Source of the DNA: a virus
Strand: one strand, 5' to 3'
Virus record (IMG/VR): IMGVR_UViG_3300048625_000299
Coordinates: 133,679 to 197,678 of that record
Length of the DNA stretch: 64,000 bases
Part shown: in pieces, positions 16,045 to 16,585 of the stretch
Numbering within the stretch: position 1 is the first letter of the stretch
Layout of the letters: each line of letters starts with the position of its first letter
Program-made: the position numbers and the translations under genes
The notes under the pieces: model-generated
Seen by the model: only the letters and a program-made list of their open reading frames with translations
Database searches by the model: none
Told to the model about the DNA's origin: nothing

Positions 16045-16233
16045 ATGATCCTGACAAAATCAAATAGACGCAACGGCATGGCCGCTCGCAAAGACGGCCT
16101 CAGAAGCATGTGGTGCGGCCGTTGCGATCGTGATGTTGTTGGTGATTATGGTAAGTGTGGAGCTTGTGGTTACTCCCGCAAAAAGGAAAAAAAGAAAATT
16201 CCTAGGTTGGAGAAGCTCGAGGAATTGTTGTAA
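16045..16233 (+). CDS. Small zinc-ribbon protein (62 aa)
   Basis: The centre has CGRCDRDVVGDYGKCGACG, two CxxC pairs typical of a zinc ribbon, followed by a lysine-rich tail (SRKKEKKKIPRLEKLEELL). An internal ATG at 16078 would give a 51-aa form. The stop codon is one base before the tmRNA acceptor segment. A role near RNA is tempting but not shown. Confidence 0.6.
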   Translation: MILTKSNRRNGMAARKDGLRSMWCGRCDRDVVGDYGKCGACGYSRKKEKKKIPRLEKLEELL

Positions 16234-16565
16234 TCCCTTCAAAGCGAAGGACTTCTGGACGCGGGTTCGACTCCCGCCAGGTCCACCAAAAGGATTTTCA
16301 ATGGATCAGTGGGATGATTATTTTCCTCCCTTAAATTTGTGGAACTACAGCCTACATTGGCAGTGGATCGATACTGATTCGGAAAATCCTTCTGATGGGC
16401 CTGCCATGGTTTCGACAGGGGTAGATAGTAGAGACGGCAACACGGTAGGCGATGACCGTAAATCAAGCGAAATCTATAAATGCAAACGATGAAGCATTTT
16501 TGATGGCTGCCTAATAGGCCCCATCTGAGTTTTGCTGGTTGAACTTGGAAACAGAATCAACCAGC
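16234..16565 (+). ncRNA. ssrA: Circularly permuted (two-piece) tmRNA gene
   Basis: The 3' (acceptor) piece comes first: a CCTTC/GAAGG hairpin, TGGAC, T-arm GCGGG-TTCGACT-CCCGC, acceptor strand CAGGTCC and encoded ACCA ending at 16288. After a 108-nt intervening segment the 5' (tag) piece starts at 16397 with GGGCCTG, pairing with CAGGTCC over 7 bp including G3:U70, the alanyl-tRNA synthetase identity pair, and with the universal GGTTTCGAC motif. The tag frame follows, then a 9-bp stem (16534-16542/16557-16565). This order is the permuted ssrA arrangement known from Alphaproteobacteria, some cyanobacteria and one betaproteobacterial lineage. The mature RNA would be two strands held by base pairing and would rescue stalled ribosomes with SmpB. 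The left boundary is approximate. Confidence 0.92.
16482..16514 (+). other. tmRNA tag-peptide reading frame ANDEAFLMAA
   Basis: Resume codon GCA at 16482, then AAC GAT GAA GCA TTT TTG ATG GCT GCC and tandem stops TAA TAG. Compare the E. coli tag (ANDENYALAA) and the betaproteobacterial ANDERFALAA type. It keeps ANDE and the final AA but has Met in place of the usual Leu/Val at the third-last position, which is part of the ClpX-recognised end. An upstream hairpin ACGGT/ACCGT (16442-16459) is in the PK1 position. Confidence 0.9.
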
Positions 16566-16585
16566 ACTAATTTAAGGAGTAAAAA

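Follow-up and report, generated by a model that had tools for sequence, protein, structure and literature searches.

A putative protein gene nested in the excised spacer of a permuted phage tmRNA gene

What can a phage do with the part of an RNA that maturation throws away? The window, the whole 64,000-nucleotide stretch of DNA analysed here (positions 133,679 to 197,678 of the 234,864-bp virus record IMGVR_UViG_3300048625_000299), raises this question because a 108-nt spacer separates the two halves of its tmRNA gene. We propose, with a probability of about 0.87 and on the strength of sequence comparisons, that the tmRNA precursor doubles as the messenger for a small protein and that the spacer serves as a cargo slot.

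ARAGORN and two Rfam models agree that positions 16226-16582 of the window form a complete circularly permuted two-piece tmRNA (all features given here are on the + strand). Infernal, which the initial annotation had named as the check to run, matched RF04321 (tmRNA_permuted) to 16226-16514 with 146.2 bits (E 7.6e-29, cut-off 47) and RF01850 (beta_tmRNA) to 16174-16582 with 144.3 bits against a gathering threshold of 84, and ARAGORN reported a single permuted tmRNA in the window. The acceptor half (16226-16288), defined by covariance model and sequence, comes first and contains the GUUGU strand, the T-arm, the 3' strand of the acceptor stem and the encoded CCA (ACCA at 16285-16288). The coding half follows, from the predicted RNase P site at 16397 to the 3' hairpin (16397-16566, with the hairpin at 16533-16566; ARAGORN and Infernal). 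The acceptor stem, CAGGTCC (16278-16284) with GGGCCTG (16397-16403), can be read directly from the sequence and has the 7 of 7 pairs, G3:U70 among them, that had been described; the GUUGU strand at the tmRNA 5' end (16226) pairs with GCAAC of the coding half. The tag reading frame found by ARAGORN (16482-16517) encodes ANDEAFLMAA and ends, as a permuted tmRNA requires, in AA and a double stop. The permuted two-piece form stated in the initial annotation is therefore confirmed, and its coordinates all check except for the 5' start of the RNA, which lies about 8 nt earlier, at 16226.

The T4-type context claimed in that annotation is upheld by matches of nearby genes to a gp32-like ssDNA-binding protein (phrog_224, E 8e-115) and a baseplate wedge protein (phrog_219, E 1e-159). 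On sequence grounds we assign the locus to the beta type of permuted tmRNA genes, carried here by a T4-type phage. Like RF04321 and the betaproteobacterial RF01850, it has the order of halves, the G3:U70 stem, the T-arm, the tag frame with its stop and the 3' hairpin. As to the host, the match to the beta model and the similar spacer ends in one genome of the order Burkholderiales (L307) give only a hint. Upstream of the tmRNA lies a zinc-ribbon-like gene of 62 codons (16045-16233; from the ORF list and locus comparison), whose TAA stop is inside the acceptor half (GTTGTAA); the same gene is found in the same place in locus L022. An ATG frame of at least 40 codons ending in the GTTGTAA of the acceptor half is present at 10 of 153 loci, including L022, L112, L058, L014 and L004.

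The presence of a permuted tmRNA in a phage, which had been put forward as the novelty, is already published and common. In PMC9004378, 53 of the unique tmRNAs counted in phage genomes have the two-piece form, and one is described in the T4-like phage Melnitz; PMC11915505, where RF04321 was built, lists 79 unique phage tmRNAs, all forms together. At least 120 IMG/VR stretches match one permuted-tmRNA pattern, and a permuted tmRNA is annotated in the Stenotrophomonas Menderavirus isolates Marzo and Yut2, so that the expectation of the same order in other phages holds for metagenomic sequences and isolates alike. Melnitz and Pelagibacter phage Mosig are likewise T4-like phages with a complete permuted ssrA; the Melnitz ssrA is described as alphaproteobacterial in kind and under glutamine riboswitch control, whereas the window tmRNA is of the beta type, and the available part of that paper makes no mention of a nested protein gene for either tmRNA (PMC9004378). 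We also noticed permuted tmRNAs that are unannotated in the public records of Xanthomonas phage XacN1 (L366), Pseudomonas phage PA_L9 (L367) and Synechococcus phage BUCT-ZZ01 (L365).

Is the window tmRNA itself active? In phage DS6A the tmRNA consists of the tRNA domain only, and inhibition of tmRNA by a molecule of this sort has been described (PMC4131195, PMC11915505), so one may ask whether the gene is a decoy or a relic, for example the scar of an integration into a host ssrA. We consider this very improbable: both halves, the tag and the 3' hairpin are intact, conservation among phages is strong in the mature halves but not in the changing spacer, and selection acts on the long tag frames found in relatives. 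The phage tmRNA is very probably functional. No recognisable SmpB was found across the 234,864-bp record, and the initial annotation, which supposed host processing of the precursor, was right in that the phage would have to rely on host factors. By analogy with known two-piece tmRNAs, host RNase P and the 3' tRNA-processing enzymes would excise the spacer to leave a two-piece tmRNA; for ribosome rescue in the infected cell this would depend on SmpB, alanyl-tRNA synthetase and EF-Tu of the host.

The spacer (16289-16396), delimited by sequence and spacer extraction and a putative coding cassette, starts AAAGGATTTTCAATGG and finishes GAAAATCCTTCTGAT. Its ends form a perfect 10-bp inverted repeat that prolongs the acceptor stem, the whole repeat being 16278-16299/16382-16403. 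The 5' arm of this presumed processing helix, AAGGATTTTC (16290-16299), includes the Shine-Dalgarno (SD) sequence AAGGA (16290-16294), which is predicted to be paired with a probability of 0.97; the 3' arm is GAAAATCCTT (16382-16391). The folding of the window tmRNA precursor has a z of -3.2. An ATG at 16301 opens the nested frame, MDQWDDYFPPLNLWNYSLHWQWIDTDSENPSD (16301-16396), whose 32 codons run flush with the coding half and contain no stop within the spacer. The frame continues through the coding half for 31 codons (16397-16492) to a TGA at 16490-16492. The initial annotation had correctly noted the ribosome site and the 63-codon open frame in connection with the 108-nt spacer, but it understated the frame, which is the new part of the finding, and of its 63 codons only numbers 1-32 lie within the spacer and are conserved.

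Homologues and substitution patterns indicate that the nested frame is very probably a real protein gene. The motif M[DE]QW..FPPLNLWN is shared by seven distinct peptides, all within tmRNA spacers (L229, with an identical peptide, L230, L231-L233 with L196, L234, L235/L237, L236 with L162, L193, L238 and L239, and L240). L229 matches the window without a difference over its full 10,096 bp; it could come from the same virus, and we do not count it as independent evidence. The distance from ATG to junction in this family is 27, 30, 32, 33 or 34 codons, always whole codons, and pN/pS is 0.23 in frame, compared with 1.0 and 1.54 in the other two frames. Free-standing small phage proteins that are otherwise different (L241-L245, L248) carry W[ND]D.FPPLNLWN[YW]P near the N-terminus, of which FPPLNLWN[YW]P is shared with the window family; the motif is therefore not an RNA constraint, and it resembles a binding motif that can be transferred between proteins. 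Neither the window peptide nor most of the other cargo could be given a function from PHROGs or Pfam.

Since the SD and the ATG are both on the precursor and the frame is open to 16492, it is conceivable that the protein is translated from the precursor only, through the coding half to 16490-16492, giving 63 residues, with translation and maturation competing for the transcript. That several families have no stop in the spacer also speaks for this reading. Among relatives, however, the tail encoded in the mature half ranges from 8 to 31 residues and differs in sequence, and the coding half of L236 lacks one base ahead of TTTCGAC, with a change of frame as the result. The tail is thus not selected, we rejected the idea of a protein tail encoded in the mature half, and we regard precursor-only translation as rather unlikely, though it is the strongest of the alternatives considered.

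We collected spacers from 212 phage loci (155 distinct sequences) with patterns for phage tmRNAs other than the alpha and cyano types; the nested examples are all on metagenome contigs. Many of these spacers have [AT]AAGGA directly after CCA, an ATG at spacer nucleotides 10-16 (85 distinct spacers) and a frame open to the spacer end. A purely noncoding processing hairpin with an open frame by chance would fit the short hairpins of bacterial spacers and the lack of a spanning ORF in 57 of the 75 distinct spacers from the scan without selection. When the arms were kept and only the interior was shuffled (200 rounds), however, an ATG frame open to the 3' arm was expected in 6.2 ± 2.2 of 70 spacer clusters of at least 80 nt (maximum 13) and was observed in 49. 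In the first viral scan, the only one not selected on the ribosome site, a spanning ORF is present in 18 of 71 distinct spacers, and in 12 of 15 among those of at least 100 nt. In the same scan the SD goes with the ORF, occurring in 13 of the 18 ORF spacers and in 5 of the 57 others (Fisher p 4e-7).

Selection was estimated in three families, including that of the window. In the nested frame pN/pS is 0.23 (window), 0.29 and 0.35, and the other frames give 0.7-3.6; shuffling of columns produced values as low as those observed in 0/300, 0/300 and 6/300 cases, respectively. Although the estimate is a simple pairwise one, from short sequences whose pairs are not independent, the purifying selection that it shows is confined to the coding frame. 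A chance ORF is rejected on the interior shuffles together with pN/pS; the whole-codon length differences of the window family and a thioredoxin domain encoded in one spacer also speak against a noncoding hairpin, which we consider highly implausible as a full account. The cargo is optional, given how many of the phage spacers lack an ORF.

The cargo itself is diverse. The nested frames encode 82 distinct proteins, 19-104 residues long, which group into about 39 families, a count that is not usable as a frequency because the second viral scan was selected for AAGGA. The thioredoxin (PF00085, E 4.1e-21) has 84 residues and exactly fills a 268-nt spacer, one nested protein has a PGDYG domain (PF14083, 3.4e-6), and many others are single hydrophobic segments. 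Four loci, L120 (474 nt), L195 (494 nt), L185 and L171, have very long or multi-frame spacers and possibly hold two nested genes each.

The junction bears on how the nested genes end. The spacer finishes in TGAT (TGAT followed by GGG at the junction) in 132 of 155 distinct spacers, and in 54 of the 85 with an early ATG the nested frame stops inside the spacer, 42 of them exactly at the terminal TGA and 12 at 9-13 nt before the junction. For genes that stop within the spacer, the message could be either the precursor or the freed spacer. No member of the window family has an in-frame stop in the spacer; at five distinct lengths all of their frames end flush at the cut, and about 9 no-stop families are flush compared with one or two that are not, a contrast that is statistically weak. 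These facts are what one would expect if the freed spacer were a deliberately stopless mini-message on which ribosomes stall at the end, on a complete GAU codon, to be tagged by the very tmRNA that was cut from the same precursor. The majority of nested genes, which do have a stop in the spacer, argue against this, as does the 3' arm, whose sequence is fixed by pairing and itself constrains the frame; we judge the idea unlikely. Its fuller form, in which the spacer of the stopless families would be a nonstop mRNA released one-for-one with the tagging tmRNA, a self-regulated message made from the discarded middle, seems slightly less likely still. If it were true, the peptide would accumulate under saturated ribosome rescue and not otherwise, a regulation comparable to that of ArfA.

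Under the reading that we prefer, the precursor as messenger with the spacer as its slot, the helix becomes important. In 5000 permutations of the arms across spacers none paired as well as the spacers' own arms, and this holds for ORF-bearing and ORF-less spacers alike; the better fit of a spacer's own arms points to a helix that is maintained through changes of cargo. The predicted pairing probability of the SD averages 0.96 across spacers. With the SD predicted to be paired in the helix, translation probably competes with folding and processing, and the nested gene would be read mainly when the helix is open, on nascent, unprocessed or unfolded precursor, or else from the freed spacer. The buried SD could silence the nested gene; that the helix limits its translation is, in our estimate, an even bet. 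Output of the nested gene would in either case be tied to transcription of the tmRNA.

Comparison of related loci indicates that the spacer is very likely an exchangeable slot. The mature halves of L012 and L021 are 100% identical over 179 nt and their spacers are unrelated, and 208 pairs have mature halves at least 90% identical with unrelated spacers. Relatives at the genomic address of the window align with it over several kilobases. At this same address L022 has an 80-nt spacer lacking an ORF, L004 a 138-nt spacer without an ATG frame, and L023, with an acceptor half 97% identical, a 200-nt spacer holding a different gene of 62 residues. Near-identical halves with unrelated or absent cargo in sisters point to an exchangeable coding cassette. 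Since the mature RNA does not retain the spacer, insertions would be tolerated there, and phages would use them as cargo; recombination through the conserved tmRNA halves may swap one cargo for another.

The spacers of bacterial permuted tmRNAs are different. In a control set mainly of the alphaproteobacterial type, with few of the beta type (L260 and L307), 48 distinct spacers had a median of 33 nt, and the one open frame (1/48), taken as a chance frame, had no ribosome site; bacterial spacers are short noncoding hairpins, whereas the 108-nt spacer of the window carries a protein gene that appears to be under selection. Across 84,980 genomes the CCA-WAAGGA signature occurs in 9 stretches, and one of these stretches, L225, is a permuted tmRNA. 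With the signature almost absent from these genomes, we rejected the idea that the nested gene is merely a copied bacterial feature. The exception (L225/L293, CALMJT010000228.1, an Alteromonadales MAG sequence that is either a phage contig or chromosome) has an SD-bearing spacer of 147 nt with a 37-residue frame resembling that in viral locus L047.

Among other phages, the Menderavirus tmRNA of Marzo and Yut2 also has a spacer whose arms pair and which finishes in TGAT but, unlike that in the window, it has neither SD nor spanning ORF. No nested gene was found in the isolate collection by tblastn with the window and MKYT families or by blastn with a nested-ORF locus. A further parallel is the group I intron tmRNA with LAGLIDADG genes (PMC11915505), which likewise has a protein gene in RNA that is removed during the maturation of a functional RNA; in the window spacer no self-splicing RNA or homing endonuclease was seen, the cargo of such spacers consists of diverse small proteins, and removal would fall to tRNA-processing enzymes. 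A search of the open-licence literature found no earlier description of ORFs in tmRNA spacers, the nearest remark being on a 1152-bp permuted tmRNA gene whose intervening sequence contains a repetitive element (PMC11915505). The excised spacer as a putative carrier of protein genes is, within that literature, the new part of the finding.

The proposed architecture, a selected protein gene nested in the discarded part of a tmRNA precursor, with cargo swapped among about 39 families (again a count and not a frequency), would be a natural system in which one and the same transcript has to be translated and also processed into a tRNA-like RNA. Tools that mask tmRNA as noncoding would be expected to overlook such genes, and tmRNA spacers are thus a place to search for small phage proteins.

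The usual length of a tmRNA tag is 10 residues. As a separate observation, the ARAGORN tags of phage permuted tmRNAs fall into two size classes, with 10-15 residues in 59 of 98 distinct cases and 23-31 residues in 39 of 98; the loci in this survey include L012, L021, L049, L071, L129, L217 and L358. One long form, ANADTFDFSAMSFTGNTVRGAANESRFALAA, is conserved, with pN/pS of 0.30 in frame compared with 3.1 and 1.4 in the other frames.
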